Shown here in pieces: positions 34,306 through 63,747 of a stretch of 64,000 nt of DNA; position 1 is the first letter of the stretch, and each line of letters opens with the position of its first letter. Origin of the DNA: Cerasicoccus maritimus (GTDB taxonomy: Bacteria > Verrucomicrobiota > Verrucomicrobiia > Opitutales > Cerasicoccaceae); assembly GCA_031296935.1 (NCBI GenBank), contig JAVDPD010000005.1, forward strand, positions 208,500 to 272,499, read 5' to 3'. A program made the position numbers and the translations under genes. The notes under the pieces are model-generated. The model saw nothing but the letters and a program-made list of their open reading frames with translations, did not search any database and had not been told where the DNA came from.

Positions 34306-34711
34306 ACCTTTGTCGGCCAAAAATCCTACTAACTAGCGGGAAATCAGCCTGTTGTGACTTTTGCGTTTGGAGGGCTCTTGATTTTAGCGCTTATCGTCCG
34401 GCTATGTTGAACACAGTGCTTCTACTTGGTTCTGATTTATGCGAAAACGAACACGGTGAAGAACTGAAGTATGAAATTTATTCATACTGCTAATATTCAG
34501 TAGTTTATGCAAAAATTAGTATTGACGAGACAGCCTTGTGAAATTCACGTTACGCGGCTTTTTTTAGTGGATTGTTAGACGCATAAGCATACGAACAATC
34601 GCCTATTTCACTCAACGACTTTACTAACTCTAAATCCCATCCAAATACTACCCAATATGTGTTTAACAGCGATACATGTTTTGGGGCGTTAACTGCTTTT
34701 TAGACAGCGAT
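34306..34711. other. AT-rich intergenic region upstream of the transglutaminase gene
   Basis: About 400 bases with no gene, clearly richer in A/T than its surroundings, probably holding the promoter of the transglutaminase gene. The only structured site is an inverted repeat at 34468-34488 (agtatgaa-attta-ttcatact), a possible operator. Confidence 0.5.
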
Positions 34712-37700
34712 ATGGCTATCGACGTCAAACTTTTCCACCGGACTTCCTACCGCTATGACCACCTGGTGACGATGGGGCCCCAAGTTGTGCGTTTGCGCCC
34801 TGCGCCGCACTGCCGCTCCGAGATCGTTTCCTACTCGATGCGCATTGAGCCCGAGGGCCAATGGGTCAACTGGCAACAGGACCCCTTCAGCAACTATTTG
34901 GCCCGCGTCGCCTTTCCCGAGAAGACCGACCTGTTCGAGGTGATCGTCGACCTGACGGTCCGCATGGAGGCGTTCAACCCGTTCGACTTCTTCCTCGACA
35001 CCAATGCCGAGCATTACCCGATCGAGTACAGCGAGGCCACCGAGCACGATCTAAAGCCGTACTTGAAAACGGAAAAGCCCGGCCCACTCCTCAAGAAGTG
35101 GGTCGACTCCGTTGACCGTAGCAAAAAGCAGACGATCGACTTCCTCGTTGAGCTGAATCAGCGCATCAACAGCGAGCTGAAATACACGCTGCGCATGGAC
35201 CCGGGCGTCCAAGAGCCCGAAGAAACCCTAGAGCTCGGCATCGGTTCCTGCCGCGACTTTACGTGGTTGTTCGTCAACATCTTGCGCCACCTGGGCATTG
35301 CCGCGCGTTTCACGTCCGGCTACTCGATCCAACTGCGCGCGGACGAAAAGGCCATCGACGGTCCGTCCGGTGTTGAAGAGGACATTTGCGACCTGCACGC
35401 CTGGACCGAAGTTTACCTGCCGGGCGCTGGCTGGGTCGGCCTCGACTCGACTTCCGGCCTGTTCTGCGGCGAAGGCCACATTCCGCTGGCCGCGACTCCA
35501 GACCCGCGCACCGCAGCGCCGATCACCGGCGGTTTCTCGGTCGACGAGGGCCAGAAGGTCAAGGACGAGTTCGAGCACGAAATGTGGATTCAGCGCGTGC
35601 ACGAGACGCCGCGTGTGACTTATCCCTACAACGACGAGCAGTGGAAAGACATCGTCGAGCTGGGCACCGAGATCGACAAGGACATGGACGCCAAGGACAT
35701 CCGCCTGACTATGGGTGGCGAGCCGACCTTCGTGTCCATCGACGACTTTGAGAGCGAAGAGTGGACCATTTCCGCCGTCGGGCTCGACAAGCGCAATAAG
35801 TCCGAAGACTTGCTTAAGCGCCTCTTCGCGAAGTATGGCAAGGGCGGCTTCCTGCACTACGGTCAGGGCAAGTGGTATCCGAGCGAGTCGCTGCCGCGCT
35901 GGTCTTACTCCTGCATCTGGCGCAAGGACGGCCAAACGATTTGGAAGGACCCCGCGCTTTTGGCGGACCTCCGTAAGGACTACGGCTTCACCGAGGTCGA
36001 GTCGCGCACGTTCATGAATCTCCTTTGCGAGAAGCTGAACCTCGACCCGAACATGGCCATGGACGGCTATGAAGACGCCTGGTATTACATGTGGCGCGAG
36101 CGCCGCTTGCCGACCAACGTCAACCCGCTGCAAAACAAAATCGAAGACGTGGAAGAGCGCACGCGCTTGGCCAAGGTCTTCGAGCAGGGGCTGAAGAAGG
36201 TCATCGGCTGCGCCTTGCCGATCGAGCGCGGCTGGGTCAATGGCCGCTACGCATGGTTGACCGGTCCGTGGTTCCTGCGCCCGGAAACGTTGTTCCTCTT
36301 CCCGGGTGACTCGCCCATGGGCCTACGTCTGCCGCTGGACTCCATGCCTTGGCAAGCGCCGACGGACTACCGCTTCATGGGTGAAGCGCCGATGCCGGAA
36401 GACGCGCCGCCGCTGCCGGACTACGATGCGCTGGCCAGCCAATACCGCCGCGATGGCGCCTCCGCAGGTGACCTGGGCAGCGGTCCGCATTCCCGCGCTG
36501 GTGGTCTGCAAAACGTTCCCCAGAGCGACCGATTTGATCCGTGGGAAGACTACATGCGCCGCTTTGGTCCGGGGAAATCTTTTGGCGCGACCCCCGGCAC
36601 TTGGCAAATCCCAGTCCACATGCGCCCGCGTCCGGAGACGATGCAGCGCCCGGACACCACGCCGCTGGACAACACCACCGCGCCGTGGATCATCCGCACC
36701 GCACTTTGCGTAGAGGCGCGCGAGGGCAACTTGTTTGTCTTCATGCCGCCGACACCGTCGATCGAAGACTACATCGACCTGTTGACCGCCATTGAAACAA
36801 CCGCTGGCGAGCTCAACATGCCGGTCGTGATCGAAGGCTACCTGCCGCCGCTCGACCGCCGTTTGGACAGCATCAAGATCACCCCGGACCCCGGCGTGGT
36901 CGAAGTCAACGTGCAGCCTTCCAGCGACTGGGCGCACCTCGTCGAAAAGACGGAGTTCCTTTACGAAGCCGCGAAGCACTGCCGCCTTGGCGCGAACAAG
37001 TTCGACCAGGATGGCACGCACACCGGCACCGGCGGGGGCAACCACATTGTCTGCGGTGGCGACTTGCCCAAGGATTCACCCATCCTGCGCAACCCGAAGC
37101 TCTTGTCCTCGCTGATCGCCTACTGGCACCAGCACCCGTCGCTCAGCTACGTGTTCAGCGGCAAGTTCATTGGGCCGACTTCGCAGGCGCCGCGTATCGA
37201 TGAAGCGCGCAATGACTCGCTTTACGAAATGGAAATCGCGATGCGCGAACTCGACGCGCAGATGCAAAACGGCAAGCAATGCCCGCCATGGCTCGTCGAC
37301 CGCATCTTCCGCAACTTGCTGACCGACTTGACCGGTAACACCCACCGCGCCGAGTTCTGCATCGACAAGCTTTACTCGCCGGACAGCTATACGGGCCGCC
37401 TGGGTCTGCTGGAAATGCGTGGCTACGAAATGCCGCCGCACGCCCGCATGTCGCTCACGCAGCACCTGCTGCTCCGCGCGCTGATCAACCGCTTCTGGGA
37501 CAACCCCTACGAGCCGGAGCGCCTCGTCCGCTGGGGCACCCAGCTGCACGACCGCTGGATGCTGCCGCACTGGAATTTCCGCGACTTCAGCGAAGTGCTG
37601 GAAGACCTTAAGGAGTGGGGCATGCCGTTCAACATCGACTGGTTTGCGCCGCATTTGGAGTTCCGCTTCCCGAAGTTTGGCGAAGTGAGCTACAACGGTA

Positions 37701-38227
37701 TGCGCATGGAAATCCGCCAGGCGCTCGAGCCTTGGCTGACCCTCGGCGAAGAGGCCACGGGGCAGGGCACCGCGCGCTACGTGGACTCCTCGGTCGAGCG
37801 CGTTCAGGTGAAGATCGAAAACTTCATCCCCGAGCGCTACGCCCTGTATTGCAACGGCTACAAGGTGCCGCTCAGCCCCGGTGGCGTGGAAGGCGAATAC
37901 GTTGCTGGCGTGCGTTTCCGCGCATGGCAGCCGCCTTCGGCCCTGCACCCGACGATCACCATCGATTCTCCGCTCACCTTTGACCTCGTCGACACCTGGA
38001 ACAACACTAGCCTAGGCGGTTGCCGTCACCACATCACCCACCCGGGTGGCCGTGGCTACGACGACTTCCCGGTCAACGCCCTCGCGGCGGAAAGCCGTCG
38101 CCTCAGCCGTTTTGAGAAGATCGGCCACACGCCCGGCGCTCAAACGATGCCGCGCCGCGAGAAGCACTCCATCGATTTCCCGATGACGCTCGACCTGCGC
38201 CAACCCCAAACCCTCAGCAACCTCTAA
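34712..38227 (+). CDS. Transglutaminase-like / DUF2126 protein
   Basis: About 1171 residues from MAIDVKLFHRTSYRYD, the conserved start of this family; an ATG at 34676 would add 12 residues. It has an N-terminal bacterial transglutaminase-N beta domain (1-100). A transglutaminase core follows, with the Cys-His-Asp triad visible as Cys180 (GIGSCRDF), His229 (LHAWTEVY) and Asp245 (GLDSTSG). A very long DUF2126 region follows (about 330-1150; marks GGEPTFVS, GGGNHIVCGGD and HRAEFCIDKLYSP). Family members are often encoded with alpha-E and circularly permuted ATP-grasp proteins and may make or cut isopeptide bonds; those partners are absent here. Confidence 0.92.
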   Translation: MAIDVKLFHRTSYRYDHLVTMGPQVVRLRPAPHCRSEIVSYSMRIEPEGQWVNWQQDPFSNYLARVAFPEKTDLFEVIVDLTVRMEAFNPFDFFLDTNAEHYPIEYSEATEHDLKPYLKTEKPGPLLKKWVDSVDRSKKQTIDFLVELNQRINSELKYTLRMDPGVQEPEETLELGIGSCRDFTWLFVNILRHLGIAARFTSGYSIQLRADEKAIDGPSGVEEDICDLHAWTEVYLPGAGWVGLDSTSGLFCGEGHIPLAATPDPRTAAPITGGFSVDEGQKVKDEFEHEMWIQRVHETPRVTYPYNDEQWKDIVELGTEIDKDMDAKDIRLTMGGEPTFVSIDDFESEEWTISAVGLDKRNKSEDLLKRLFAKYGKGGFLHYGQGKWYPSESLPRWSYSCIWRKDGQTIWKDPALLADLRKDYGFTEVESRTFMNLLCEKLNLDPNMAMDGYEDAWYYMWRERRLPTNVNPLQNKIEDVEERTRLAKVFEQGLKKVIGCALPIERGWVNGRYAWLTGPWFLRPETLFLFPGDSPMGLRLPLDSMPWQAPTDYRFMGEAPMPEDAPPLPDYDALASQYRRDGASAGDLGSGPHSRAGGLQNVPQSDRFDPWEDYMRRFGPGKSFGATPGTWQIPVHMRPRPETMQRPDTTPLDNTTAPWIIRTALCVEAREGNLFVFMPPTPSIEDYIDLLTAIETTAGELNMPVVIEGYLPPLDRRLDSIKITPDPGVVEVNVQPSSDWAHLVEKTEFLYEAAKHCRLGANKFDQDGTHTGTGGGNHIVCGGDLPKDSPILRNPKLLSSLIAYWHQHPSLSYVFSGKFIGPTSQAPRIDEARNDSLYEMEIAMRELDAQMQNGKQCPPWLVDRIFRNLLTDLTGNTHRAEFCIDKLYSPDSYTGRLGLLEMRGYEMPPHARMSLTQHLLLRALINRFWDNPYEPERLVRWGTQLHDRWMLPHWNFRDFSEVLEDLKEWGMPFNIDWFAPHLEFRFPKFGEVSYNGMRMEIRQALEPWLTLGEEATGQGTARYVDSSVERVQVKIENFIPERYALYCNGYKVPLSPGGVEGEYVAGVRFRAWQPPSALHPTITIDSPLTFDLVDTWNNTSLGGCRHHITHPGGRGYDDFPVNALAAESRRLSRFEKIGHTPGAQTMPRREKHSIDFPMTLDLRQPQTLSNL

Positions 38228-44975: not shown

Positions 44976-46607
44976 TTAGGAGGCGAGCAGGACTTGCAGG
45001 TCTTGTTCGGGCGTAGTGATTGGCTGAATGTTGTAATGGGCCACCAGATAATTCAGCACGTTGGGCGTAATGAACGCTGGCAGCGTCGGCCCCAGGCGGA
45101 TATCTTTGATGCCCAGGTAGAGCAAGGTAAGCAGGATTGAGACCGCCTTTTGCTCATACCAGGAAAGCACCATCGAAAGTGGCAGATCGTTGACGCCGCA
45201 GTCGAAGGCCTTGCTCAGCGCCACGGCGATTTGAATGGCCGAGTAGGCATCGTTGCACTGGCCAATGTCGAGTAGGCGCGGGATGCCGCGGATGTCACCG
45301 AGGTCTTCCTTGATGAAGCGGAACTTGCCGCAGGCGAGGGTTAAAACAACCGAGTCGGCGGGTGTCTGACGCACGAAATCCGTGTAGTAGCTGCGTTCGG
45401 AGCGCGCGCCATCACAGCCGCCGACCAGGAAGAAATGCTTGATGTCACCCGCCTTGACGGCGTCGATAATCTTGTCCACTACGCCGAGCACTGCGTTGCG
45501 CGCAAAGCCGGTCGTGACCGTGCCTTGGTCGGTGTCGTCGGTCCAGCCGTCGAGCTCCAGCGCCTTGTCGATGACAGCGGAAAAGTCGTGTTCGGGCACA
45601 TGCTGGACGTCGGGCCAGCCGACGAGGTTCGTCGTGAACACACGGTCGGCGTAGCTGGCCAAGGGGCGTTGAATGCAATTCGTGGTGAAGAGGATCGCGC
45701 CGGGGAAGTTACCGAGTTCGATGCGTTGGTTGTGCCAGGCGGTTCCGAAGTGGCCGAAGAAATGTGGATACTTCTTGAGCTGCGGATAGGCATGGCAGGG
45801 CAGCATCTCGCCGTGGGTGTAGACATCGATGCCCTTGCCCTCGGTTTGGCGCAGGAGGGTTTCGAGGTTTTGCAAGTCGTGCCCGGTGATGAGAATGCAC
45901 TTGTTTTTGCGGTGGCCGAGCGGGACGGCGGTAGGCTCTGGGTGGCCGTAGTGGCCGGTGTTACTGGCGTCGAGCAGCTCCATCGCGCGTAGGTTGATCT
46001 CGCCAGCGCGCAGCGCAGCCTTCACGCAGTCTTCCACGGTCAAGCCCTCGGCAGTCAGCGCGAGGAGGGCGTCGTAGATGAACTCAGTGACGACCGGATC
46101 GGCCTCGCCAAACTTGTAGGCGTGCTCAGCGTAGGCGGCGATGCCCTTGATCCCGTAGAGCAGGATCTGCTTGAGCGAGCGGATGTCGGCGTCGGCATCG
46201 AGCTTTTCGATGAGGTTAAGCGCGCGGCTTTGTTCAATTAGCGCCTCGTTGGTGTCGGCGGGTATGAAGCGAGCCGAGGGATGGGGAAAACCAAGGTCGC
46301 GGCTAGCTTCGGCGAGCTGGGCGGTCAGCGCGTTGCGGCGGGCGACGGTTTCGCGGATGAGATCGCACAGGCGATCGGCGTCGAAATTGACGTTGGTCAG
46401 CGTGGTGAAGACGCCTTTGAGCACGAAGAAGTCGAGTTCCTCATCGACGATGCCGAGGTTTCGCGCTTCATGGGCGGGAAAGGCCAGGCCTTGCAGCGCG
46501 TAGATGAGCGCGTCTTGCAGGGCAGCGGTGATGTCGGTTTTGCCGCAGACGCCGCCGATTTCGCAGGCGACCCCTTTAGCAGTTTGTTCGCATTGGTTGC
46601 AGTACAT
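44976..46607 (-). CDS. hcp: Hydroxylamine reductase / hybrid-cluster protein
   Basis: A 543-residue Hcp. The N-terminal cysteines are MYCNQCEQTAKGVACEIGGVC (C3, C6, C15, C21; spacing CX2C-X8-C-X5-C), the pattern of class I Hcp proteins with a [4Fe-4S] proximal cluster. The later hybrid-cluster ligands are carried by stretches such as GHDLQNLE, FTTNCIQRP and LVGGCDGARSERSY. It reduces NO to N2O (and hydroxylamine in vitro), protecting anaerobic cells from nitrosative stress. It is cotranscribed with the yecH-like gene and divergent from a Crp/Fnr regulator, with an FNR-type box in between. Confidence 0.96.
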   Translation of the reverse strand: MYCNQCEQTAKGVACEIGGVCGKTDITAALQDALIYALQGLAFPAHEARNLGIVDEELDFFVLKGVFTTLTNVNFDADRLCDLIRETVARRNALTAQLAEASRDLGFPHPSARFIPADTNEALIEQSRALNLIEKLDADADIRSLKQILLYGIKGIAAYAEHAYKFGEADPVVTEFIYDALLALTAEGLTVEDCVKAALRAGEINLRAMELLDASNTGHYGHPEPTAVPLGHRKNKCILITGHDLQNLETLLRQTEGKGIDVYTHGEMLPCHAYPQLKKYPHFFGHFGTAWHNQRIELGNFPGAILFTTNCIQRPLASYADRVFTTNLVGWPDVQHVPEHDFSAVIDKALELDGWTDDTDQGTVTTGFARNAVLGVVDKIIDAVKAGDIKHFFLVGGCDGARSERSYYTDFVRQTPADSVVLTLACGKFRFIKEDLGDIRGIPRLLDIGQCNDAYSAIQIAVALSKAFDCGVNDLPLSMVLSWYEQKAVSILLTLLYLGIKDIRLGPTLPAFITPNVLNYLVAHYNIQPITTPEQDLQVLLAS

Positions 46608-46746: not shown

Positions 46747-47415
46747 ATGGACCGCGCCGCAATTATAGCCCAATGCAGCCTCTTCAACGGTCTGAACGAA
46801 GAGGACGTGCTGATGCTGGCCGCTGCCTGTGAAACGAAGCAGGTCGGGCGCGGTGAAGTGATCTTCCTCGAAGGGGTGGCGGCGGTCGGATTTTACGTCG
46901 TCGCGACGGGCCAAGTGAAGATCTACAAGAGCAACGCCGAGGGGCGCGAAAAGATCCTCCACATCTTCGGGCCGGGGGAATCTTTTGCGGAAGTGCCAGT
47001 GTTTCACGGCGACCCGTATCCTGCTTCGGCGATGGCGATGAAGGCCTCGGAGGTGCTGTGCTTTCCGCGGGCGCGCTTCGTGGAAATCATCGAGCAGCAT
47101 CCCTCGCTGTCGATGAATATGCTGGCGAATTTCGCCCAGAAGTTGCGGCGCTTCTCCATGCAGATTGAAAACCTCGCGCTGCGTGAAGTCCCTGCGCGGC
47201 TGGCCTCGCATTTGATCTACCTCAGCGAGTCGCAAAAGCGCACCGACGCTGTGACGCTGCGCGTGCCCAAGGGCCAGCTGGCCAACCTTCTGGGCACGAC
47301 GCCGGAAACGCTGTCGCGTGTGCTGGGGCGGCTGGAAGAGTCGGGCGTGATCCGCTCGGAAGGCAAGGCCATTGCACTGCTCGACTGGCCCAAATTACGC
47401 GAGTTGGCGGGCTAA
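46747..47415 (+). CDS. Crp/Fnr family transcriptional regulator
   Basis: 222 residues: N-terminal cyclic-nucleotide-binding-type beta-roll (EVIFLEGVAAVGFYVVATGQ, then VFHGDPYPASAMA), long dimerisation helix, and C-terminal winged helix (about 150-218) with recognition helix in NLLGTTPETLSRVLGRL. It lacks the FNR-type N-terminal cysteine cluster, so it is more like DNR/HcpR-type NO sensors. Divergence from hcp and the TTGA-N6-TCAA site suggest it activates hcp in response to NO or low oxygen. Confidence 0.92.
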   Translation: MDRAAIIAQCSLFNGLNEEDVLMLAAACETKQVGRGEVIFLEGVAAVGFYVVATGQVKIYKSNAEGREKILHIFGPGESFAEVPVFHGDPYPASAMAMKASEVLCFPRARFVEIIEQHPSLSMNMLANFAQKLRRFSMQIENLALREVPARLASHLIYLSESQKRTDAVTLRVPKGQLANLLGTTPETLSRVLGRLEESGVIRSEGKAIALLDWPKLRELAG

Positions 47416-51667: not shown

Positions 51668-52384
51668 ATGAAATTGTACATACATGTTTTTACCGCAGCT
51701 TTTGCAGCGACCTTAGCTAGCGTGTCTCACGCGACTTCACTCGGGTTCGGTCAGATCGGGGGCAGTAATACTGGCATCTCGACAAACTTTGGATCTAATG
51801 CTGTTGTTGACGGAAACGGATACATCATATCGGACGACGCAACGCCCAATGTTACCCTTACCTGGGATTCTGAGTGGGATGTCCACACGAGTTCTTGGTT
51901 TACGGATTTGGAAAACAAAACTGTAGGTGGTGGTGACTGGGATAACGAAGGTGGCACAAATCGCATTGCGCAGCTGGATTCCAGTTCACACTCCATCACG
52001 TTTGATGTGGATAGCGGATACGCGTTGGTCCTAAACTCATTTGACATCGGGCACACTGCCGAAACCACTGGAGTAACGACTTGGGATGTGGAGCTGACTG
52101 ATTCTGACAACGCCATTGTTTGGAGCCAATTCCTGACTTTGGACAATTCGAGCGTTGAGACTTCCATCCTTACGATAGCGCCTGAATTTACAGGACTTGA
52201 CGGAGAAACCTACACGCTTTCATTCAACTTGGTCTCGGAAACTTATGGTTCCAACGGGCGCCATGCTATTGATAACTTAACCTTCAGTCAGGTTGCGATC
52301 CCAGAACCTTCGACGGTTGCTGCAATCATGGGTTTGTGCGTTTTAGTTCCATTACTTCGCCGGCGCCAGCAGCAGGCCAATTAA
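51668..52384 (+). CDS. PEP-CTERM sorted secreted protein
   Basis: 238 residues: signal peptide (YIHVFTAAFAATLASVSHA), a ~185-residue beta-rich domain, and a C-terminal sorting signal IPEPSTVAAIMGLCVLV followed by RRRQ. That signal is recognised by an exosortase (EpsH/XrtA-type, not in this window). The beta domain is clearly homologous to residues 20-210 of the next gene's product (shared SNAxVDGxGY, HTSSWF, VGGGDWDNEG, SNGRHAIDNL). No Shine-Dalgarno site. Its role may be glycan binding or surface display; the domain family is not one I can name. Confidence 0.85.
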   Translation: MKLYIHVFTAAFAATLASVSHATSLGFGQIGGSNTGISTNFGSNAVVDGNGYIISDDATPNVTLTWDSEWDVHTSSWFTDLENKTVGGGDWDNEGGTNRIAQLDSSSHSITFDVDSGYALVLNSFDIGHTAETTGVTTWDVELTDSDNAIVWSQFLTLDNSSVETSILTIAPEFTGLDGETYTLSFNLVSETYGSNGRHAIDNLTFSQVAIPEPSTVAAIMGLCVLVPLLRRRQQQAN

Positions 52385-52623: not shown

Positions 52624-55600
52624 ATGAAAAATTCTCAAATACTCTTCGCCTTAGGCTTGTTGGCTGGCGCTGTTAGTTCGGGGCATGCAACCATCATTGG
52701 CTTTGGTGAATTAGGTGGCAGTAATACCTCGATACCCTCAAATTTAGCTTCTAATGCTTCGGTGGATGGCAGTGGCTATGTTGTAACTAATGGCGTAACG
52801 CCTAACATCGCGCTTCTTTGGGATGCTGCGTGGGATATACATACTAGCTCATGGTTCAATAACTTGGAAAGCCTCACCGTGGGAGGTGGCGATTGGGATA
52901 ACGAAGGAAATAGTCCACGGGTGGGGCAGCTTGATATCGATTATCACACGATTACATTTGAAGCCGATGCAGGTTACGCCGTTGTACTGAATTCATTTGA
53001 TTTCGTTCATACTCAGGAAACCAGTGGGACTACTGTTTGGGCACTCACGCTGAAGGATTCCAATGGGAGCGTGGTTTGGACTGAAACATTAAACATGGAT
53101 AGCTCTAGCACCAGTACTTCCGTTGTTACAGTTGAGCCAGACTTCACCGGCGAGTTGGGCGAGAGTTATACGCTGACCTTTGATCTGACTTCGCAGACTT
53201 ACAGTTCGAACGGTCGCCACGCTATTGATAACCTCAGCTTTAACCAATATCCTGATCCTGCGGCTGAGGCGAGCTTGGTGCACCATTATCCTTTTGATAA
53301 TGACGCTACGGACGCATTGGGCTTGGCGGACTTGAGTGTCAGTGGCGACTCAGTTACTTTCGTTGGCAGTGATGGAGCAGTAGATGGATACGTTAATCTA
53401 GGTGGTGCAGAAGATTGCTTACTGGCAGATTTGAGCCTGGGCAGCGCGCTGTCCATTTTGGGTGACTACAGTGTTTTTCGTCCATTCAGTTTGGCGTTTT
53501 GGATTCGTCAAAATCCGACTGATGCTACGGATGGAACGCATTCGGTTTTTGGAATGAGCACTGGGTCAACGAACCCAGATACTTACGCTACTGGCTTCGA
53601 GGTGGCGACTCATGATGCAAGTGCTCGCTCTTTGTTTGCGTGGCAACGCAACGGCAGTACCGTAGGCGAAATTGCGACTGGTGTAGATGTCGCTACGGGG
53701 GCATGGCGTCACGTGGTGGTAGTGTTTCTGGAAAATACTCGCTTCACTTATGTTGATGGTGAATTGGTCGGAAGTGATGATGCAGCAGTTGCGATAACGA
53801 CCAATCCGCTGCGTTACTTTACCATTGGAGCGCTGATGCAAAACGGCTCGATTATCAATGAGTTCCACGGTGATGTGGATGATTTTCAGGTCTACACCGG
53901 GCGCATCGATGATACGCAGGCGTTGCAGCTATACCAAAACCCAGGGCGTACTTTGGATGAAGATTTACCAGATCCGGTGGTCGACCCTAATACTGATTTG
54001 GCCGATCTGGTTGACGTCTGGATTGGTACGATTGGCGCTGGTTCCTGCCCTCCAGGTGCCTGTCTGCCCCAGTCATCAATCTATCCCAGCCCAAATACGG
54101 AATCGGCGGCTTCATCGGGCTATGCGGCTGGTAGTTCGGTGGTTGGTTTTGCGCAGATACACGCCACGGGCGCAGGTTCGTCGACTCTATCTTATGGCAA
54201 CTTTCTGGTCTCGCCGCGCATAGGGCTCGACATCGATGAGGATGATCATGCTTCCGTCCTACTAGATGCGGAAGCACATCCTTATTCCTTTAAGGGAACC
54301 CTTAGCGAATGGGGAATTGATTTTGCGCTCGCGCCAACCGCCAATACTGCCATTTACGAGTTTGAGTTCCCTGCCTCGACAGATGCGCGGATTAACTTCG
54401 ATGTTGCGCGTAAATTGGGCAGCAGCACCGGTATGGTGAATGGTTCTTTGGAGATTGATCTCGAAAGCGGGACCATTAGCGGCGGCGGTGAGTTTGATGG
54501 GAATTGGAACCCCGCCGCTTACAACCTCTACTTTTACGCGGTGGTTGACCGTACGCCGATTTCCGGAGGTTCGTGGGTTGGAGCGACTGCCACTGAAGGC
54601 GCTTTAACCGCCTCCACTGAAACACGCCAACGCTTAGGAGGCTGGCTGACATTTGACACCACCGAAAATACGATGGTTCGCTTGAAGATCGCTGTATCTT
54701 TCGATTCCGTGGCTAAGGCGCAGCAATACCTCGAAAGTGAGAATGCCGGTTGGGATTTTTCCACTGTTGAAGCTCAGGCGAAAGAAGCGTGGAATGACGC
54801 CCTAGGAACAGTTTCAACCCCTGATATTAGCCAGATCGAAGCGCGTCTATTTTACACCGCGCTTTACCATAGCCTGATTCAGCCTCGTGACCGTACCGGC
54901 GATCCAGCTGATTGGCCGTCAGATGCGCCGTTTTGGGATGACCAATACACGCTTTGGGATACTTGGATAACACTCTACCCGCTACTTGCTATCGTGAGGC
55001 CGGAGTCCGTCGCCGCGAATGTTAATTCATTTGCCGAGCGATTCGAACACAATGGCGTTGCCGAAACCGCGTTTATTCAAGGCAAGGATTATCAAGTCGG
55101 CCAAGGCGGCGACGAAGTGGATCGCGTGATCGCAGACGCATTCGTCAAACAGATTGAGGGCATCGACTGGGAGAAAGTCTGGGACTTGCTTGAGTTTAAT
55201 GCGTCGCGGCGTACGCCAGAATATCGGAATCTTGGCTATGTCGCTACGGACGGAAATTCCAATGGCTACGACTTCCGCCTTGCCTCTGCATCGTCTACGC
55301 TCGGATTTGCACATGGTGACTGGTGCGCTTCGCTGGTCGCTGAGAGTCTGGGACATTCGACCGAAGCTGAGCTTTTGCGCGACCGCTCCGGAAACTGGCG
55401 AAACGTGTGGGATGAATCCGCCACCAGCGATGGCTTCACGGGCTTTATCAAAGCACGCAGCAGCGATGGTGAGTTTGATGAATCGGCTGCAACTTCGTCG
55501 AGCGGGTTTTATCAGGGAACCAGTTGGAACTATTCTTTCAACGTGCCACACGAGCGCGATGAACTGGTTGAGTTAATGGGCGGGCATGCGCGCTTCATTC

Positions 55601-58600
55601 AGCGACTTGAGTTTGCGTTGGGGCAGGGTGACGGCAGTTATATTGACTACACGAATGAGCCCGGTTTTCAGACAACATTCCTCTTCGGTTATGCGCGCCG
55701 ACCATACCTGGCTTCGTATTGGGCATCGCAGCTACGTGAGCGTTTCAGCGAATATGGCTACCCGGGAGACGAAGATTCTGGCGCCATGTCGTCGCTTTAT
55801 TTCTTCACTACGGCGGGCTTCTTCCCAATGGCGACAGAAGACGTTTACTACCTGCATGGTCCGCGTATTCCCGAAGTGTCGTTTCATGCGCCGAATGGAA
55901 ATACGTTTACGATTCTGGCGGAAAATGCTGGCGGTGAAAATTACTACATTCAATCCGCTCAGCTCAATGGTGAGGTATTGGATGAAGCATTGATTCGCCA
56001 TGCAGACTTTACCGATGGCTCAACCCTGGAGTTGGTCATGGGTGCCTATCCCAATGAGTGGGGAACGGGTGCTGATTTCCAGGCGCCACTCAACTATGAT
56101 GATTCTTTTGCTGTGTCGGGTGAATGGGCCAGCGCTTTGGGGGATGCTCCATTGGATGGTGCCGAAACTGATTCCCCTTCCTGGGGTGGTTCGACTGATG
56201 CTGCCGCAAACTCTGCCATCTATGCTCCGTTTGAGTCAGTGTTCCTGAACCAAGGTGGCGCTACGATGACGCTCAGCGCCAAAGTGAGCTTCAGTGGACT
56301 AAGCAACGACAATAATGGCGCTGCGGAGAATTTCGCTTGGGGGCTCTTTTCAGGTGATGAAGATACGCTTGTTTGGTCGGGTTATCTCGCGGCAACTGAT
56401 GGTATCGATGATGCGGGAACCTCAGCCTTTTTCAGTAAAACGTCGGCTGATGATGAGGCCTTTTATGTGCAAAGCGAAGCATCTTCGCTGGCAAGTTTTG
56501 CCTTGCCCAAAGCACCGCTCGAAGATGGTGACTACCGTTTGGTCCTCACGCTGACTTGGTCTGAAAACTCTACGATGGATTACTATGCTGCGCTTGTTCG
56601 TGAAAGCGACGGCGTGTTGATGAGCGCCTTCACGGGATCGGATTCCAGTCCGAATGCATCGATTTTCAATCGCGTCGGTTTCCGTGTGGGTAATGACCTG
56701 GATGCAGATACGGTAGCAATCAGTGATTGCATGATTTACACCAGCAATCTGGCTGAGCTCGCTCCGGTCCCGCAAAGCAATGCCGTGACCTCGGAGGTCA
56801 ATGCCAGTGCGCTGAGCGGCTATGTGGGCGACCTCAATGATTACGTAACGGATCCCGATGGTGATACGCTTTATTACACGAAGGTAAGCGGTCCAGATTG
56901 GCTCGTGGTCAATTCCGATGGCACGATCTCGGGGAAGCCGGATTTTTCCGATGTCGGCACGAGTGTGTTCGTGATCTCAGTCACCGATAATGAAGATGGC
57001 TCCGCTAGCTTTACTTTGAACATAGTTGTGGAAGAGGCGATTGAAATACTACGTGCGCCACTCCCAGCATTGGGCGATACGCTTCGGTTTGGTGTGATCC
57101 CTGATACGCAAGGATCGACCAATGGAGTACCAGTTGACGAAGCGAATGCAGTTGCGCTCAAGCTTATTGAGCTGGCTCCTTCGTTTGTGATCGAAGTCGG
57201 TGACGTAACCGATGGCAATTCATCGGGCGACGCAAAGCTGTCTCAACTTGAGTTGCTCAAGGCACAAATGGTCACGCCACTGCGCAACAATGGCATCGAG
57301 TATTATCCGGTGCGCGGTAACCACGATTCATTGGCCAGTTCTTTGACGAGCAGTTTGAGCTGGGTTTGGCAGGCGGCGTTCCCTTGGCTCTTCGAGGGAG
57401 ACGGTGCAGTAATCGATCCCACGGATGTCCCCGGCGGCAGTGCGGATACCCCGAACTACAAGAACTACTCCTACGTTTATGATACAGGTGCCAATACCTT
57501 CATGATTGCGCTCGACGAATGGGATGGAGGCACGGACACAAACTACAGCGAATGGATCACTGATAAGCTGGCGGAGATTCGCAGCGAGCACCCGGATGCG
57601 CACATCTTCCCATTTTCACACACTGGTTTGTTCGCAATGGCGCTGCACCCGGCCATGACTGAATACATCTCCACTGGTCCGGAGCCATTTATCGAAGCAT
57701 GTGCGGAGTATGAAATAGATGGTTGGCTTGCAGGGCATAACCATATCTACGACCGTTCTATGGCGGTGGATTTGGACAACGACGCACGCTCAGAGTTCTT
57801 CTACATCACATGTGGATCGGCATCGGAAAAGTTCTATAGCCTGTCCCGACTCCCCGCGGATGATCAGCGCCTGAACCACTTGGTTGACAGTACGCACACT
57901 GAAGGCGAGCCGATTGCGTTTCAAATCATCGAAATCAACGGCGACTTTGTCACCATGCACAATTGGATGACGCCCGAGCATGATGATGGTTCTTTCACGG
58001 AATGGTCGATTTGGGACACCTACACCTACTCGCGAAATGGGGGCCAGTACAATGTTGCAGCGCAGGGCACCTATAACGACGCCAACATCGTTGACACAGC
58101 GCCCGATAAAGACGGCTTTGTGGGGACCAGTTTGAAGGTGAGTGACGGTGTAAATAGTGATGCTACTTACTATACAGTGGATAGTGAAACGTTCGGACTC
58201 TACCGCAACATAACCATTGGTTGGATTATGCAATCTCAGTGGCATGATGCAGATGGCGTCGATTTGGCGTCTGACATTGCCAGTATTCATGGCATGCGGA
58301 ATGATCCCGTACGTAACCGTTGTGACGCTTACACACTAAGCCTTTCCTACGATGATAGTGAATTATCCGATTCTCAGGAGAAGCAATTGAATCTAATTGC
58401 TTTTGTTGATTACGACGATGCGGATTCAGATCCTGGTGATTGGACCAATGCTGCGGGCGCAACCCTCGGAGATTTAGTCGCTGAGCCAGTTTACCGTGCA
58501 CCCAGTTCAGATGATGAGGTCGGTGTTTGGGGTGTCGATGTGGACAACAATATAGTATGGGCGCGTCTTGATTACCAAGGCGATTTTGCCATCGCTTCGA

Positions 58601-59115
58601 ATGCGATCGATTCGGACAGCGACGGCTTGGAGGATACTTGGGAAATAGCGAATTTTGGTTCCCTTGTTTATGGAGCCGATGACGATGTGGATGGCGACGG
58701 CCTGAACAACCTTGACGAGCAGAAAATCCATACTAGCCCAACCTTGGCGGATAGCGATGGTGACTTGTTTAGCGACGGTGTTGAATACCAGGCGGGGCTC
58801 GATCCAATCGTCATGAACAGTGATTTGCGTGATAGCATGTTGGAAGCTCTGCGTAATAATCTAGGATTGCAGACTGAGTTTGGCCTCTTCACTTCGTCGA
58901 CGATCGTAGGCTTGGCAGGTGAGCGTCCAGTGATTAAACTTGGAGATGAAGGTCAGGTTCAGTTGAAACTTCAGCTTTTGTTTAGCCATGATCTACAGTC
59001 ATGGGAGAACATCGAACTTATCGAAGTCGAGCCTGATGTGGACACTGATGGCGCAGGCTTTTTCATTTGGACGCCTGATACTACAGATGCAGTGTTAATG
59101 GAAAGCACTGACTAA
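52624..59115 (+). CDS. Giant secreted GH92 alpha-mannosidase fused to a metallophosphoesterase
   Basis: 2163 residues with a signal peptide (ILFALGLLAGAVSSGHA). In order: beta domain shared with the upstream PEP-CTERM protein (20-210); LamG (~215-440); GH92 catalytic region (~461-1150) with NEP (1011-1013) and GDEDSGAMS (1048-1056, general-base Asp1051); beta domain (~1160-1370); cadherin-like module (~1380-1465). A calcineurin-type metallophosphoesterase follows (~1488-1800) with Asp1494, GDV Asp1527, GNHD 1565-1568 and GHNH 1704-1707. Last come a beta domain and calcium-binding DSDSDG/DVDGDG repeats (~1996-2060). GH92 enzymes cleave alpha-mannose. The fused phosphatase suggests phosphorylated mannans. 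No PEP-CTERM end and no Shine-Dalgarno site. Confidence 0.88.
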   Translation: MKNSQILFALGLLAGAVSSGHATIIGFGELGGSNTSIPSNLASNASVDGSGYVVTNGVTPNIALLWDAAWDIHTSSWFNNLESLTVGGGDWDNEGNSPRVGQLDIDYHTITFEADAGYAVVLNSFDFVHTQETSGTTVWALTLKDSNGSVVWTETLNMDSSSTSTSVVTVEPDFTGELGESYTLTFDLTSQTYSSNGRHAIDNLSFNQYPDPAAEASLVHHYPFDNDATDALGLADLSVSGDSVTFVGSDGAVDGYVNLGGAEDCLLADLSLGSALSILGDYSVFRPFSLAFWIRQNPTDATDGTHSVFGMSTGSTNPDTYATGFEVATHDASARSLFAWQRNGSTVGEIATGVDVATGAWRHVVVVFLENTRFTYVDGELVGSDDAAVAITTNPLRYFTIGALMQNGSIINEFHGDVDDFQVYTGRIDDTQALQLYQNPGRTLDEDLPDPVVDPNTDLADLVDVWIGTIGAGSCPPGACLPQSSIYPSPNTESAASSGYAAGSSVVGFAQIHATGAGSSTLSYGNFLVSPRIGLDIDEDDHASVLLDAEAHPYSFKGTLSEWGIDFALAPTANTAIYEFEFPASTDARINFDVARKLGSSTGMVNGSLEIDLESGTISGGGEFDGNWNPAAYNLYFYAVVDRTPISGGSWVGATATEGALTASTETRQRLGGWLTFDTTENTMVRLKIAVSFDSVAKAQQYLESENAGWDFSTVEAQAKEAWNDALGTVSTPDISQIEARLFYTALYHSLIQPRDRTGDPADWPSDAPFWDDQYTLWDTWITLYPLLAIVRPESVAANVNSFAERFEHNGVAETAFIQGKDYQVGQGGDEVDRVIADAFVKQIEGIDWEKVWDLLEFNASRRTPEYRNLGYVATDGNSNGYDFRLASASSTLGFAHGDWCASLVAESLGHSTEAELLRDRSGNWRNVWDESATSDGFTGFIKARSSDGEFDESAATSSSGFYQGTSWNYSFNVPHERDELVELMGGHARFIQRLEFALGQGDGSYIDYTNEPGFQTTFLFGYARRPYLASYWASQLRERFSEYGYPGDEDSGAMSSLYFFTTAGFFPMATEDVYYLHGPRIPEVSFHAPNGNTFTILAENAGGENYYIQSAQLNGEVLDEALIRHADFTDGSTLELVMGAYPNEWGTGADFQAPLNYDDSFAVSGEWASALGDAPLDGAETDSPSWGGSTDAAANSAIYAPFESVFLNQGGATMTLSAKVSFSGLSNDNNGAAENFAWGLFSGDEDTLVWSGYLAATDGIDDAGTSAFFSKTSADDEAFYVQSEASSLASFALPKAPLEDGDYRLVLTLTWSENSTMDYYAALVRESDGVLMSAFTGSDSSPNASIFNRVGFRVGNDLDADTVAISDCMIYTSNLAELAPVPQSNAVTSEVNASALSGYVGDLNDYVTDPDGDTLYYTKVSGPDWLVVNSDGTISGKPDFSDVGTSVFVISVTDNEDGSASFTLNIVVEEAIEILRAPLPALGDTLRFGVIPDTQGSTNGVPVDEANAVALKLIELAPSFVIEVGDVTDGNSSGDAKLSQLELLKAQMVTPLRNNGIEYYPVRGNHDSLASSLTSSLSWVWQAAFPWLFEGDGAVIDPTDVPGGSADTPNYKNYSYVYDTGANTFMIALDEWDGGTDTNYSEWITDKLAEIRSEHPDAHIFPFSHTGLFAMALHPAMTEYISTGPEPFIEACAEYEIDGWLAGHNHIYDRSMAVDLDNDARSEFFYITCGSASEKFYSLSRLPADDQRLNHLVDSTHTEGEPIAFQIIEINGDFVTMHNWMTPEHDDGSFTEWSIWDTYTYSRNGGQYNVAAQGTYNDANIVDTAPDKDGFVGTSLKVSDGVNSDATYYTVDSETFGLYRNITIGWIMQSQWHDADGVDLASDIASIHGMRNDPVRNRCDAYTLSLSYDDSELSDSQEKQLNLIAFVDYDDADSDPGDWTNAAGATLGDLVAEPVYRAPSSDDEVGVWGVDVDNNIVWARLDYQGDFAIASNAIDSDSDGLEDTWEIANFGSLVYGADDDVDGDGLNNLDEQKIHTSPTLADSDGDLFSDGVEYQAGLDPIVMNSDLRDSMLEALRNNLGLQTEFGLFTSSTIVGLAGERPVIKLGDEGQVQLKLQLLFSHDLQSWENIELIEVEPDVDTDGAGFFIWTPDTTDAVLMESTD

Positions 59116-59236: not shown

Positions 59237-59279
59237 ATTTGCGCAATGCGCAAATCTTCCGGTGCAGCGGGACGCTGCT
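59237..59279. repeat. Double-hairpin repeat R3, copy 2
   Basis: Same 43-base layout as 30184-30226: atttgcgca / tgcgcaaat hairpin, then gcagcg-gga-cgctgc. It ends on the stop codon of the minus-strand deacetylase gene. The first hairpin differs from copy 1 by a compensated base pair. Confidence 0.8.
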
Positions 59280-62200
59280 TATTGGGCGGTGAGGATGACT
59301 TGGCCGTTGTCGGGGACGGCGTCCACGAAGACGTAGGTGTCGCCGTTGTTGGTGACTATCTGGGCCGGGACGGAGATGCCGTTTTGCAGAGCGGAGACGC
59401 CCGTCCAGCCATCGGCGCGGAGCTTCACCGTGAGCGGCGTGTAGAACAGGCCGTCGTGCATTTCGTCAGTCAGCGTGAAGCGGATTTCGCTGGCGCTGAC
59501 GGAGTCGATGACGAGGTTGCTCGTAAGGCGCTCCTGGGCGTATTGGGCAACGTGGGTGTAGGTGTCGACGTAGTATTTTGCCTCGTTGTCCTTGATGGCC
59601 TGGAAGGCGGCTTCGATGTCATCCATGTCCTGCTGGTCGCCGTTGATGCCGTGGTAGAGTAGCACGCCCCAGCCGCGGTACTGCGAGTAGGCGAAGTTGC
59701 GCTGGTCTTCGAGGCGGTTGAACCAGGTGCCGTTGATAACGGTGTCGTAGGTCTTGATCGCGCCCATGGATTTCGTCTCCATGAAGTCGGCCATGTGGAT
59801 GGGGGTCGGGCCACCGGAGGTGCCGCGGGCTGAGATAAGATTGTCGCTCAGCGCGATCTTATACTCGTCGTTCGTGCCGGGGTCGCCGCAGGGGTAGGCG
59901 TAGGTCGAGATGTAGTTGCCAATCTCGCCCTCGAGGTGGTCGATGCCGAGCAGGCAATGGTCGAGGTAGTCTTGGGCGGAGAGGCCGTTCATCTGAGTGC
60001 AGGAGCCGTGGAGCTGGATGTCGTGACCGGCGTCGTAGAGCGGCTTCCAGGTGCCGATGGCGGTGCCCGCATAGCCGTTATTGTAGCCGGTCTGGTCGAG
60101 GTAGATGTCCCACATGCCGTCGTGCACGATGAGAAACCAGGTGAACTTCCAGCCGAACTGTGCGGCCATGCTTTCCCAAAAGGGAACGTCGGGCGCGTTG
60201 TTGTCATCGATGGTGATGGACAGCGCGGCGAGCTTGTCATCCTTCCACAGGCAGACGTGGCCTTCGCCGTGGTTGGCAGGCCAGACCCACTCAAGCTCGG
60301 CATAGGAATCGTAGTGGTAACCATCGGCCGGGACGGGCACATTCAGCTGCTGGCTACCGCCGGCACCATTGCCGGTATCGGGCCAGATGGGCGAGTAGTC
60401 GGCGCGGTAGGCGTTCCACATATCTTTGATGAATTGCGGCAGGTTGTTGGAGCCGTTGTTACCGCCGGTGATGTCCATGTAGCGGTCGCTGTAGTCGAGG
60501 AACGCGTTGTCATTCCAGAGCGTGCGCGCGCCCATGATCTCGACGGCGAGCGTGATGCCCGGGTAGACGCTGCCGTTGATATCGCGGTATTTGGAGGCGA
60601 AGTGGGCGTTGTCGGAGGCAGGCACGTAGCTATGGCGAATGCCCCAATCGGGCATGCCGATGTCGGCCGTGGTGTAGGGCGTGTATTCGTTGATGACGGT
60701 CTGCGTGGTCGAGTCCCAAACGTTGCGGTAGTCGGGCTCCCACTGGCCGCCGGGCAGGACGCCGGGGTGCGTGGCGGGCCACTTGTTAGAGGTGTCGGAG
60801 AGGCCACTTTGGGTCAGGTCGACAATGGCCTGGTCGACGTAGAAGGTGTTTTGAAACTCCTGGAATTCCACCCCGCCGTTGCCGAGCCCGTCGCCCTGGC
60901 CCCAGATGCCGGCGTCCTTCATGTGCTGGTCGTCGAGGAGGAGACCGGCCACGATGATCGGCATTTTACGGCCCAGGCCATGACCGCCGTTCGCGCGCCA
61001 ACCGCCGCCATTGTCAGCGATGCCAGCGAGGTCGATGCCGAGCTGGGTGAAGGAGATGAGCAGCTGGTCTTTGCTCGGGGAACCGGGCAATTGGCTGTAG
61101 TCGAGGTTGAGCATCATCAGCGCTTCATTGATGTCCTGCGCCATGTGTTGACCGTAGTTGTCCATGTGCTCGGACGGGTGGATGAACGCGCCGAGGTATT
61201 CGAAGACGTGGTCAATCCACGGGCGGGCAAAATACGACTCGACCGTCGCCGGGTCCGGGACGCTTGTACCGACGGGGGCGAGGTTCGCGAGGACGGAGGT
61301 GTCGATGTCGCTGAGGTTGTAGTTCACCGTCTTGTCCGTGCCAGCGTAGGGCGGGCGGAAGGAATAGTCGGCGGGCGCAGCGTCGAGCACGGTCAGCACG
61401 GCAGCCGATCGGGTGACGGGGCGCGGGGTGCCGGTGCCACCATTAAACGTCGGGGCACCGGGCTCGGCGGTTCCGCTAACGGAGTCATACATCCAGCTGA
61501 CGGAGGAGATCAGTGTGCTGTCGTTTTGAATCGTAAGCGGCAGATTGAGGCCGACGTTGAGCGCGGCGTTGTAGCTGCTGATGCCGTCGTCGTAGCCTTG
61601 CTCTTCGCGGTCCTGGCCTGGCGAGAGCGGGTTGAGCATTGAGCCGTTTTGGCCAACGCCGGGCGTCCACGCGGGGTCGTTCAGGTTGTTGGTAATGCTC
61701 GATACGGTCACGGGGCCGACGACCCAGTAATCGCCCGAAACAAAGGTGCCGTAGCTGACCGGCGAGGCGAAGGTCCAGGTAACGCCGTTACTCGTGATAC
61801 TGCTAGTGGTGCCGTAGCTGGTGCCGACGGTTTGGCTGCCGGCAACTTCGAGCGTGAGCTTCGGGTTGTTCCCGCTGTCGGCGGTGTCGTAGATCACGTA
61901 TTGGTAACCTGCGTTCGGCGCCTTGTCGTTTGTGAGGATGAAATAAACGAACGCGCCGGGCTGCGCGCCCGCGGTGTAGAAGCTCTCGACGAAGCTGCTG
62001 ATGTCGGCTGAGACACGCCAGCCGAAGCTGTCAGCCACGATGTCGGCGTGTGTCAGGATGTTGTCCGTGAGGAGCGTGGCGTTGGGGTTGGTCGGGTTCT
62101 CGCCGTCGACAAAGAACTGGGCATCGGCGGCGTCGCCAATGTAGTCATAGAGCGTGCTGCCGTAGAGATCGATGTTGTCGAGGTTGGCGTCGGCCCAGGT

Positions 62201-63379
62201 AGAAGCGCTGCTGAAGCTGACCTCCAACGTGGCGTTTTGCAGGGCGCCGCCATTGAGGTCGGGCAGGGCCATCGGGATCACGACTACCCAGTTCTCCAGC
62301 ACCGAGCTACGGCTGCCAATGCGCGAGCCGGCTTCACCAATGAAGCGCGCGCTGCCATCGGCCTTGATCGCCTGGTCGCTGTTGGTCGCATAGACTTCGA
62401 TCGTGGTTACGGGGGGCGGGGCACCTTGGTAAACGGCCTCCAGGTTGTTGCCGTTGACCTGAAGCGCCCAGTCGGCCGCATCGTTGGCATCAAGGGCCAA
62501 GCCTGCGTAGATGTTACCGCCGTCGGTCGCGGATAAGAGCGTGTAGGTTGCGCCGTTGGCCGGGGCCGCGCCGTTGAGCTCCAGGTCGATCGTGCCAGCC
62601 AAGCTGTCACTGGCTCCGCTGTTGAGGCTGATCGGCGTCACGCCGCCTGCGTCCACCGTGAACTTGAGCGTGGCGTTGGCGGTGGTGGTCAGGTTGCCAG
62701 TGAAATCAATCAGCGTCGCGCCGGAGCCATTCACGTGGAAGGTGGCTTGGTCGATGGTGTTGCTATGCCACTGGTGGTCGTCGAGGAATTCGCCGCCTGA
62801 GATTTCCACACTCACCGCAGCCGGGCTTGTGACCGTGCCGAGGTTCATCGAGCGGAAAACGGTTTTGCCGCCAGTCTGGGTTAAGCTATACGACGTGCCG
62901 CTGTTCGCGCCTCCAACATGGGACAGGCTCAGGCGGTCCAGATGCAGCTCTCCGCCGGTGACCAGCGCAGCGCCAGTCGTGCCCCCGTTGGTGTGTGCGG
63001 CGTAGGGCATCGTTAGGTGGACGCCGCTGTTTTCGGTGGTGTTGAATTTTCCGCCGTGGATCTCGAACACGGCGTCGCCGGTCGCGATGTTGCGGTTGAC
63101 CTGCACTTCGTAGGACAAATCGACATTGCCGCCAGTTTGGATGTAGCTGCCGCTGTCCTTTAGGGCAATACAAGGCAGGTTGGTCAGGGTCAGGTCGCCG
63201 CCGGTCACGCGGGCGATGTCGGTATTGTCGATGACGACACCAGTGTCGGTGATGGTGTTGCCGGTTTGGCAGATGGTCTGATCGCCGGTAACGTCGATCG
63301 TGGCATAAGTCGGGGCGCCCAGGCAAAGCCCAGCTATCGCCCCAAAAGCCGCTTGCCAGCGGATTGGGGGAGTATGCAT
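59279..63379 (-). CDS. Giant secreted polysaccharide-deacetylase (NodB-like) multidomain protein
   Basis: About 1366 residues from ATG 63379, which starts just before a signal peptide (RWQAAFGAIAGLCLGAPTYA); an ATG at 63436 would add 19 residues. Residues ~25-300 carry beta-helix-like repeats with TGGxL/GGEF turns, as in autotransporter passengers. A DNRLRE/CBM96-like domain lies at ~330-525 (DGSARFIGEAGSRIGSRSS). A mostly helical ~400-residue region (~690-960; WIDHVFEYLGAFIHPSEHMDNYGQ, split here) may be a lyase-type toroid. A NodB deacetylase lies at ~1040-1250 with metal ligands Asp1058/1059 (SITIDDNN) and HDIQLH (His1119, His1124). It would deacetylate a polysaccharide outside the cell. 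It is notably more G/C-rich than the convergent GH92 gene. Confidence 0.82.
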   Translation of the reverse strand: MHTPPIRWQAAFGAIAGLCLGAPTYATIDVTGDQTICQTGNTITDTGVVIDNTDIARVTGGDLTLTNLPCIALKDSGSYIQTGGNVDLSYEVQVNRNIATGDAVFEIHGGKFNTTENSGVHLTMPYAAHTNGGTTGAALVTGGELHLDRLSLSHVGGANSGTSYSLTQTGGKTVFRSMNLGTVTSPAAVSVEISGGEFLDDHQWHSNTIDQATFHVNGSGATLIDFTGNLTTTANATLKFTVDAGGVTPISLNSGASDSLAGTIDLELNGAAPANGATYTLLSATDGGNIYAGLALDANDAADWALQVNGNNLEAVYQGAPPPVTTIEVYATNSDQAIKADGSARFIGEAGSRIGSRSSVLENWVVVIPMALPDLNGGALQNATLEVSFSSASTWADANLDNIDLYGSTLYDYIGDAADAQFFVDGENPTNPNATLLTDNILTHADIVADSFGWRVSADISSFVESFYTAGAQPGAFVYFILTNDKAPNAGYQYVIYDTADSGNNPKLTLEVAGSQTVGTSYGTTSSITSNGVTWTFASPVSYGTFVSGDYWVVGPVTVSSITNNLNDPAWTPGVGQNGSMLNPLSPGQDREEQGYDDGISSYNAALNVGLNLPLTIQNDSTLISSVSWMYDSVSGTAEPGAPTFNGGTGTPRPVTRSAAVLTVLDAAPADYSFRPPYAGTDKTVNYNLSDIDTSVLANLAPVGTSVPDPATVESYFARPWIDHVFEYLGAFIHPSEHMDNYGQHMAQDINEALMMLNLDYSQLPGSPSKDQLLISFTQLGIDLAGIADNGGGWRANGGHGLGRKMPIIVAGLLLDDQHMKDAGIWGQGDGLGNGGVEFQEFQNTFYVDQAIVDLTQSGLSDTSNKWPATHPGVLPGGQWEPDYRNVWDSTTQTVINEYTPYTTADIGMPDWGIRHSYVPASDNAHFASKYRDINGSVYPGITLAVEIMGARTLWNDNAFLDYSDRYMDITGGNNGSNNLPQFIKDMWNAYRADYSPIWPDTGNGAGGSQQLNVPVPADGYHYDSYAELEWVWPANHGEGHVCLWKDDKLAALSITIDDNNAPDVPFWESMAAQFGWKFTWFLIVHDGMWDIYLDQTGYNNGYAGTAIGTWKPLYDAGHDIQLHGSCTQMNGLSAQDYLDHCLLGIDHLEGEIGNYISTYAYPCGDPGTNDEYKIALSDNLISARGTSGGPTPIHMADFMETKSMGAIKTYDTVINGTWFNRLEDQRNFAYSQYRGWGVLLYHGINGDQQDMDDIEAAFQAIKDNEAKYYVDTYTHVAQYAQERLTSNLVIDSVSASEIRFTLTDEMHDGLFYTPLTVKLRADGWTGVSALQNGISVPAQIVTNNGDTYVFVDAVPDNGQVILTAQ

Positions 63380-63747
63380 ATCAGGGGTACGGTTTAATTT
63401 TAGAGAGGTATGGTCGCGAACTCGTGCGACATACATATCTTGTTAGTTAGTCTTTGATCCGTCAATCAGAGATCAAGGGGTTTACGGAAGATTCAAATGC
63501 ACTTTTCCGACTTGATTGGTAGCTTTGATCAACCGCTTGGACGTTTTTACTAGGTGGTGCTCGTGTCCAGTTCAGTGTGGATGAATGTTAATCAAATGTT
63601 GTATTAAGCTGCAATGCGCTAGCATTAGTTGGTGCTGAGTGGCAATTGATACAATGTCTATAGTCTGATCGGATGCGTGTAAGTCATGCACTCGGCCGTT
63701 GTGGGCTCACGCACAAGATCTTTACACAAGTATTCATCGGCACCAAG
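63380..63747. other. AT-rich intergenic region
   Basis: No gene seen. It presumably contains the promoter of the deacetylase gene near 63400-63480 and the flank of the mobile element to the right. Confidence 0.5.

Follow-up and report, generated by a model that had tools for sequence, protein, structure and literature searches.

The window analysed here, a stretch of 64,000 nucleotides from Cerasicoccus maritimus (Verrucomicrobiota), contains a gene that joins a glycoside hydrolase family 92 (GH92) mannosidase domain to a calcineurin-type phosphoesterase domain (Table 1). The first-pass annotation had read the two domains in one polypeptide, and this is borne out by a single open reading frame (ORF) of 2163 amino acids in which both are matched over the Pfam cut-offs: the GH92 domains (Glyco_hydro_92N and Glyco_hydro_92) at full length, with TIGR01180 at 301 bits (cut-off 249.55), and Metallophos at residues 1488 to 1709 with an E-value of 1.7e-08 and 35.6 bits (cut-off 21.5). 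The same architecture recurs in three further genomes, one of the same genus (locus L020, genome G001; GH92 part 92% identical to that of the window) and two of another family of the same order (L021 and L022; 71 to 72%), with Pfam confirmation in L021 and L022. Its occurrence in four genomes makes an accident of assembly unlikely, and an assembly or annotation artefact was rejected. From its start, which by eye resembles a signal peptide, the product is predicted to be a large secreted protein. No described enzyme with this pairing had been known to the first-pass annotation, and no account of a GH92-phosphoesterase fusion was found in the open-access literature, among the matches listed; one of these, PMC10434189 on iron deficiency in Bacteroidetes, contains terms for both GH92 and phosphoesterases.

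Table 1. Positions in the window of the fusion gene, its domains and motifs, and the gene upstream of it
Feature	Residues	Coordinates	Strand	Basis or remark
Whole fusion gene	1-2163	52624..59115	+	single uninterrupted ORF, 2163 aa
Signal-peptide-like start and N-terminal domain without Pfam match	1-219	52624..53280	+	start by eye
Laminin_G_3 / ConA-like lectin domain	286-426	53479..53901	+	Pfam
Glyco_hydro_92N	462-692	54007..54699	+	Pfam, 4.7e-41
Glyco_hydro_92 catalytic domain	698-1140	54715..56043	+	Pfam, 2.6e-106
KDYQVGQGGDE, contains the GQ[GA]G[DN] subfamily mark	821-831	55084..55116	+	alignments
Gln964 codon, GH92 general-acid position	964	55513..55515	+	alignments
GDEDSG, general-base motif (D1049 and D1051)	1048-1053	55765..55782	+	alignment
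He_PIG / Big_9 Ig-like domain	about 1380-1467	56761..57024	+	Pfam
Conserved phosphoesterase module (Metallophos core 1488-1709 plus conserved extension)	1478-1969	57055..58530	+	
PDTQ, DxQ where the DxH metal motif is expected	1493-1496	57100..57111	+	alignment
GNHD	1565-1568	57316..57327	+	alignment
GHNH	1704-1707	57733..57744	+	alignment
TSP3-like stretch	2043-2061	58750..58806	+	Pfam, under cut-off
Upstream gene, same N-terminal domain and PEP-CTERM-like C-terminus		51668..52384	+	238 aa

An AlphaFold2 model of residues 441 to 1160 (21-row alignment) has a mean predicted local distance difference test (pLDDT) score of 89.9, and its best Foldseek match in the PDB is 6f8z, the enzyme BT3130 of Bacteroides thetaiotaomicron, with a template modeling (TM) score of 0.86. 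The GH92 part keeps 30 of the 32 positions that are conserved at 93% or more in Glu-type GH92, that is, in proteins with Glu at the general-acid position, and the pair of base aspartates (D642 and D644 of BT3990) is retained in its GDEDSG motif. The catalytic motifs of both domains had been called intact; this holds for GDEDSG and for the phosphoesterase motifs, but the general-acid Glu (E533 of BT3990) is absent, and in its place stands Gln964, which lies opposite the general-acid Glu of BT3130 in the printed alignment. The acid is given as Glu535 in BT3130 and as Glu533 in BT3990 (PMC5930347, PMC10167667; the papers cited by PMC number are represented here by excerpts). BT3990 and BT3130 resemble the window protein in fold and in the base Asp pair, whereas their acid is Glu, they have no GQGGD stretch and, by the excerpts of PMC10167667, they comprise the catalytic domain only. 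In a first comparison, Gln was found in 4/4 fused proteins and Glu in 14/14 other GH92 proteins of the relatives, without a fifteenth (L013/L023) that is cut by its contig end.

The same Gln occurs in CcMan5 (CcGH92) of Cellulosimicrobium cellulans (PDB 2xsg and 4aq0), an enzyme reportedly described by Tiels et al. in 2012. CcMan5 reads LYQGTLWQYHW at the acid position, according to a printed alignment made through the actinobacterial protein L180, which matches CcMan5 with 757 bits. It is described as targeting Man-PO4-Man phosphodiester linkages in the excerpts of PMC5930347, and an alpha-mannosidase of C. cellulans is described as being used for uncapping to give mannose-6-phosphate glycans for lysosomal enzyme therapy in those of PMC9246025. 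CcMan5 is like the window protein in its GH92 fold, its Gln at the acid position and the type of substrate proposed, although its base region reads MDND rather than GDEDSG.

To place this residue among GH92 proteins, 348 ORFs with a GH92 profile match were collected, and 263 were kept after removal of ORFs with a match of under 200 profile positions and of ORFs whose 80-residue core was identical to that of a retained ORF; 261 of these cover the acid (L190 and L038 lack the region). The survey covers the fetched part of the GH92 matches listed, and its sample is non-random: it comprises the relatives of the window, 387 genomes of the phylum and two actinobacterial orders (198 and 249 genomes), and also loci chosen by likeness to the Gln-type family or by ORF length or subfamily. 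The acid residue was Glu in 239 ORFs and Gln in 22, with no other residue; the 84 Glu rows with unusual neighbours were inspected. One explanation of the Gln is that the GH92 module is catalytically dead and binds mannose, so that it places the phosphatase on mannan-coated surfaces for phosphate scavenging. The change from Glu to Gln is known to kill or cripple ordinary GH92 enzymes: in the excerpts cited, AnGH92A E598Q and E598A are inactive (PMC12858847) and the Ala and Gln variants of the Bt3990 acid are strongly impaired, though not dead (PMC10167667), and PDB entry 7fe2 bears the title of an E494Q mutant complex, in which E494 is presumably the acid. However, the window protein retains the bases and the 30 of 32 conserved positions, 22/22 non-Glu rows are Gln, and CcMan5, which has the same Gln, is reported in PMC5930347 to act on phosphodiesters. 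We consider a loss of catalysis unlikely.

To detect phosphoesterase modules, the ORFs were searched for the motifs and also, from three seeds, by phmmer. Among full ORFs of at least 950 aa, a fused phosphoesterase was present in 8/19 of the Gln type and in 0/114 of the Glu type (Fisher 3.9e-8, kinship ignored); among all full ORFs, the counts were 8/21 and 0/220 (8.1e-10, kinship ignored), ORFs cut by a locus end (19 Glu, 1 Gln) being excluded. Metallophos was confirmed by Pfam in seven of the eight fusions, all those scanned (the window, L021, L022, L199, L200, L205, and L206); the remaining one, L020, is the copy in the same genus. Pfam listed no Metallophos in the 25 longest proteins of the Glu-type set of 114. 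The phosphoesterases are of two types, that of the window in Verrucomicrobiota and a Pur_ac_phosph_N plus Metallophos module in the actinobacterial L199, L200, L205, and L206. These four proteins share with the window protein a Gln-type GH92 followed by Metallophos in one chain, but they differ in belonging to another GH92 clade (FHQST/FNQAT) and in the purple-acid-phosphatase type of their module. Since the two domain types are different, the fusion seems, on sequence grounds, to have arisen at least twice, once with the window's kind of domain in Verrucomicrobiota and once with a purple acid phosphatase in Actinomycetota.

In a tree built with FastTree from the 261 GH92 domains, with the acid column removed, the acid residue changes state at least five times and the phosphoesterase trait three times. 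All fusions fall within two of the five Gln clades, and the Gln clades account for 7.2% of the branch length. The window's subfamily lies in a group of 31 rows (9 Gln, 22 Glu, support 92) that also holds the CcMan5-like L201. As the outermost row of this group, L201 may be a remote neighbour of the subfamily, with rows of the Glu type in between; it is split from the window's Gln clade by such rows and by a long branch, and differs further in that no phosphoesterase was found in it and that it has no GQ[GA]G[DN] mark. Inheritance of the Gln on the same branch as in CcMan5 was accordingly not found. The distribution of the fusions also bears on the idea that the GH92 module is an ordinary, slower alpha-mannosidase, in which Gln, water or a substrate group does the work of Glu, and that the phosphatase is an incidental product of domain shuffling. 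Modularity is indeed high in these proteins (LamG, Ig, TSP3), and the phosphoesterase module has other partners too; yet every fusion in the sample involves a Gln-type GH92, and these fusions span two phyla and two types of phosphoesterase. This explanation appears quite improbable to us.

The phosphoesterase module of the window protein contains, in order, PDTQ (1493), GDVTDG (1526), GNHD (1565), SHTG (1665), and GHNH (1704). Its metal-site residues (D, GD, GNH, H, GHxH) are invariant in 10/10 aligned modules, the window included, with DxQ, not DxH, as the first motif, and PF00149 is matched by 10/10 of them at E up to 1; no NCBIfam match was found for the module at E up to 0.1. Residues 1478 to 1969 recur, at 53 to 59% identity, in another six giant proteins from the order, and the module is matched at 1e-5 in 11 of 177 genomes, its own included. 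A GH92 search of those six genomes gave none at the places of the giant proteins. A Pfam scan covered four of these loci: L131, L133, and L135 have the same C-terminal module plus a second Metallophos stretch, and L132, which is cut by a contig end, has one; L134 seems to be nearly a copy of L135. L131, L133, and L135 are giant LamG proteins with two different Metallophos stretches per chain, relatives of the C-terminal half of the fusion. The upstream Metallophos domain of L131 matches PDB 2nxf with an E-value of 7.1e-16, and the module thus also occurs downstream of another phosphoester-cleaving domain. We take 2nxf to be an ADPRibase-Mn-like metallophosphoesterase; it has the DxQ metal motif in common with the window (IADVQY in the alignment with the L131 domain, PDTQ in the window), although the window module itself matches no PDB sequence.

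Beside the actinobacterial fusion L200 lies a gene (L200:1220-6265) whose product combines LTD, Metallophos, 5'-nucleotidase C-terminal and SLH domains with a below-cut-off EEP match, and which hints at phosphate scavenging. It has a bearing on a further explanation, in which each module works on its own part of a single phosphorylated glycan or phosphorus source, the phosphoesterase cleaving, say, a diester or pyrophosphate elsewhere, rather than both working in turn on one group. The pairing of the module with a second, 2nxf-like phosphoesterase in the sibling proteins, the DxQ in place of DxH at the metal site, and the Metallophos, 5'-nucleotidase and EEP matches in the L200 neighbour would all suit such a division of labour. 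By itself, however, it does not explain why phosphoesterases were found joined to Gln-type GH92 only, and we hold it to be distinctly improbable.

We suggest instead that the fusion product probably acts, as a secreted enzyme with two functions, on alpha-mannosyl phosphodiesters (R-O-PO2-O-1-alpha-Man). The GH92 module would bind the capping mannose, and its Asp pair and Ca2+ would bring about inverting hydrolysis of the mannose-phosphate bond. Since phosphate can presumably leave without a proton, the acid Glu would not be needed. The di-metal phosphoesterase module in the same polypeptide would then hydrolyse the phosphomonoester left on the glycan, while the LamG and N-terminal domains may hold the enzyme on the glycan or surface; the expected products are mannose, phosphate and the dephosphorylated glycan. 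That the phosphatase is paired with GH92 for phosphorylated mannose had been proposed before, with removal of the phosphate first. The pairing gains comparative support from the Gln of CcMan5 and from the restriction of the sampled fusions to Gln-type GH92, but the order is probably the reverse: the first step expected of a Gln-type GH92 is release of mannose from the phosphodiester, which would leave a phosphomonoester. The second Metallophos stretch beside the module in L131, L133, and L135 also counts in favour of our reading. In a wider sense, we judge the chances somewhat better than even that Gln at the acid position marks recurrent, separately evolved mannosyl-phosphodiester hydrolases, which have been fused in at least two phyla to different phosphoesterases and would combine uncapping and dephosphorylation in a single chain, possibly winning both phosphate and mannose.

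Several observations weigh against the assignment to mannosyl phosphodiesters. The window protein has no close sequence similarity to CcMan5 (118 bits, a lower score than those of the Bacteroides enzymes). A fused phosphoesterase is lacking in 11/19 of the full Gln-type ORFs with 950 aa or more, and in the CcMan5-like L201 too. A tree-aware pairwise test of the two traits yielded three pairs, of which one agrees, none disagrees and two are equal in the acid; with only three independent pairs, this test cannot reach significance. A follow-up in another actinobacterial order, covering 40 regions that contain long GH92 ORFs, gave three further Gln-type rows (L314, L339, and L340) and no fusion of either kind; it neither broke nor strengthened the link between Gln and fusion. 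Two of these rows, L339 and L340, retain just 23 of the 31 conserved positions, so that Gln can also sit in doubtful enzymes. For the phosphoesterase, no PDB sequence match was obtained with the module alone or with a 10-row profile, and the AlphaFold2 model of the module, made from a 3-row alignment, has a pLDDT of 33.5. The genomes with the unfused Gln-type L027, L028, and L036 list 6, 8, and 12 GH92 matches, respectively, and other uses of the Glu-to-Gln change are possible in such GH92-rich genomes. Finally, a GH76 match is absent from the window's own genome (97.6% complete), which has one GH92 and one GH38 and therefore does not look equipped as a yeast-mannan degrader.

The surroundings of three unfused Gln-type genes were also scanned. 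At L027, the four flanking ORFs scanned include a PI-PLC-X gene and, immediately upstream in the same orientation, a gene of the EEP family. Of the two scanned at L028, one encodes a sulfatase-GDSL protein with an additional match to Phosphodiest (PF01663, 31 bits, cut-off 23), and the four scanned at L036 include GH38 and GH31 and no phosphatase. These domain scans were made on selected ORFs of Gln-type loci, and Glu-type flanks were compared by phmmer with the window module only; by phmmer, no relative of that module was present in the flanks of L027 to L033 and L035 to L089.

A functional parallel is offered by B. thetaiotaomicron, which is described in excerpts of PMC10154615 as stripping phosphate-attached mannose with GH38 and phosphate with phosphatases. 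As would be the case for the fusion, both the mannose held through phosphate and the phosphate are removed in this mannan pathway; however, the steps are divided among separate proteins, and the first-step glycosidase is of a different family (GH38). If our interpretation is true, a single residue would predict activity on mannose-phosphate diesters among GH92 enzymes; to our knowledge, few bacterial enzymes have been described for this bond. The fused proteins would then be ready-made two-step reagents, and phosphoglycans might serve these Verrucomicrobiota as a source of phosphorus and carbon.

The GH92 part had been regarded as divergent by the loss of a GDH/GHH calcium-site motif at GQGGDEVDRVIADAF. 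This reading was abandoned, as the stretch carries the GQ[GA]G[DN] mark of a subfamily instead. The mark is present in 16/16 loci from L026 to L041 (L042 does not cover the stretch) and, among the 261 ORFs of the survey, in 18 (7 of the Gln type and 11 of the Glu type), while more distant GH92 mostly read x-MxG at this position (C-MTG, V-MTG and similar). GDH/GHH as a family feature at the mark position was not seen in the alignments examined, in which the calcium ligands are unmapped. The subfamily, L026 to L042 in the related-loci search, is 40 to 92% identical, and L195 was found later as an extra member. Both acid types occur in it: Gln in the window, L020/L026, L021, L022/L034, L027, L028, L036, and L042, and Glu in L029 to L033, L035, and L037 to L041. 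One subfamily comparison was made with 10 Glu members and without L038, whose gene lies in two ORFs.

The 238-aa protein encoded directly upstream of the fusion gene is 54% identical to residues 1 to 219 of the fusion. It is small and secreted-looking, with a PEP-CTERM-like C-terminus that scores 16.7 bits in Pfam (below the cut-off of 20.7) and 17.5 bits with TIGR02595 (cut-off 16), and the N-terminal domain is thus duplicated between adjacent genes; this shared domain may be a surface or glycan-binding module. Elsewhere in the window, positions 59279-63436 on the minus strand hold an ORF of 1385 aa for which neither Pfam nor NCBIfam gave a match at E up to 0.01 and whose C-terminal part resembles a polysaccharide deacetylase by eye, and 34676-38227 encodes a 1183-aa protein with a transglutaminase-like domain and a DUF2126 putative amidoligase. 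A hybrid-cluster (hydroxylamine reductase-like) protein and a divergently read Crp/Fnr-type regulator, both recognized by eye, lie side by side at 44976-46607 and 46747-47415. Outside the window, a 2.6-Mb Micrococcales metagenome-assembled genome (G523; L089 and L225 to L229) has seven GH92 matches, all in ORFs of 1296 to 2004 aa.

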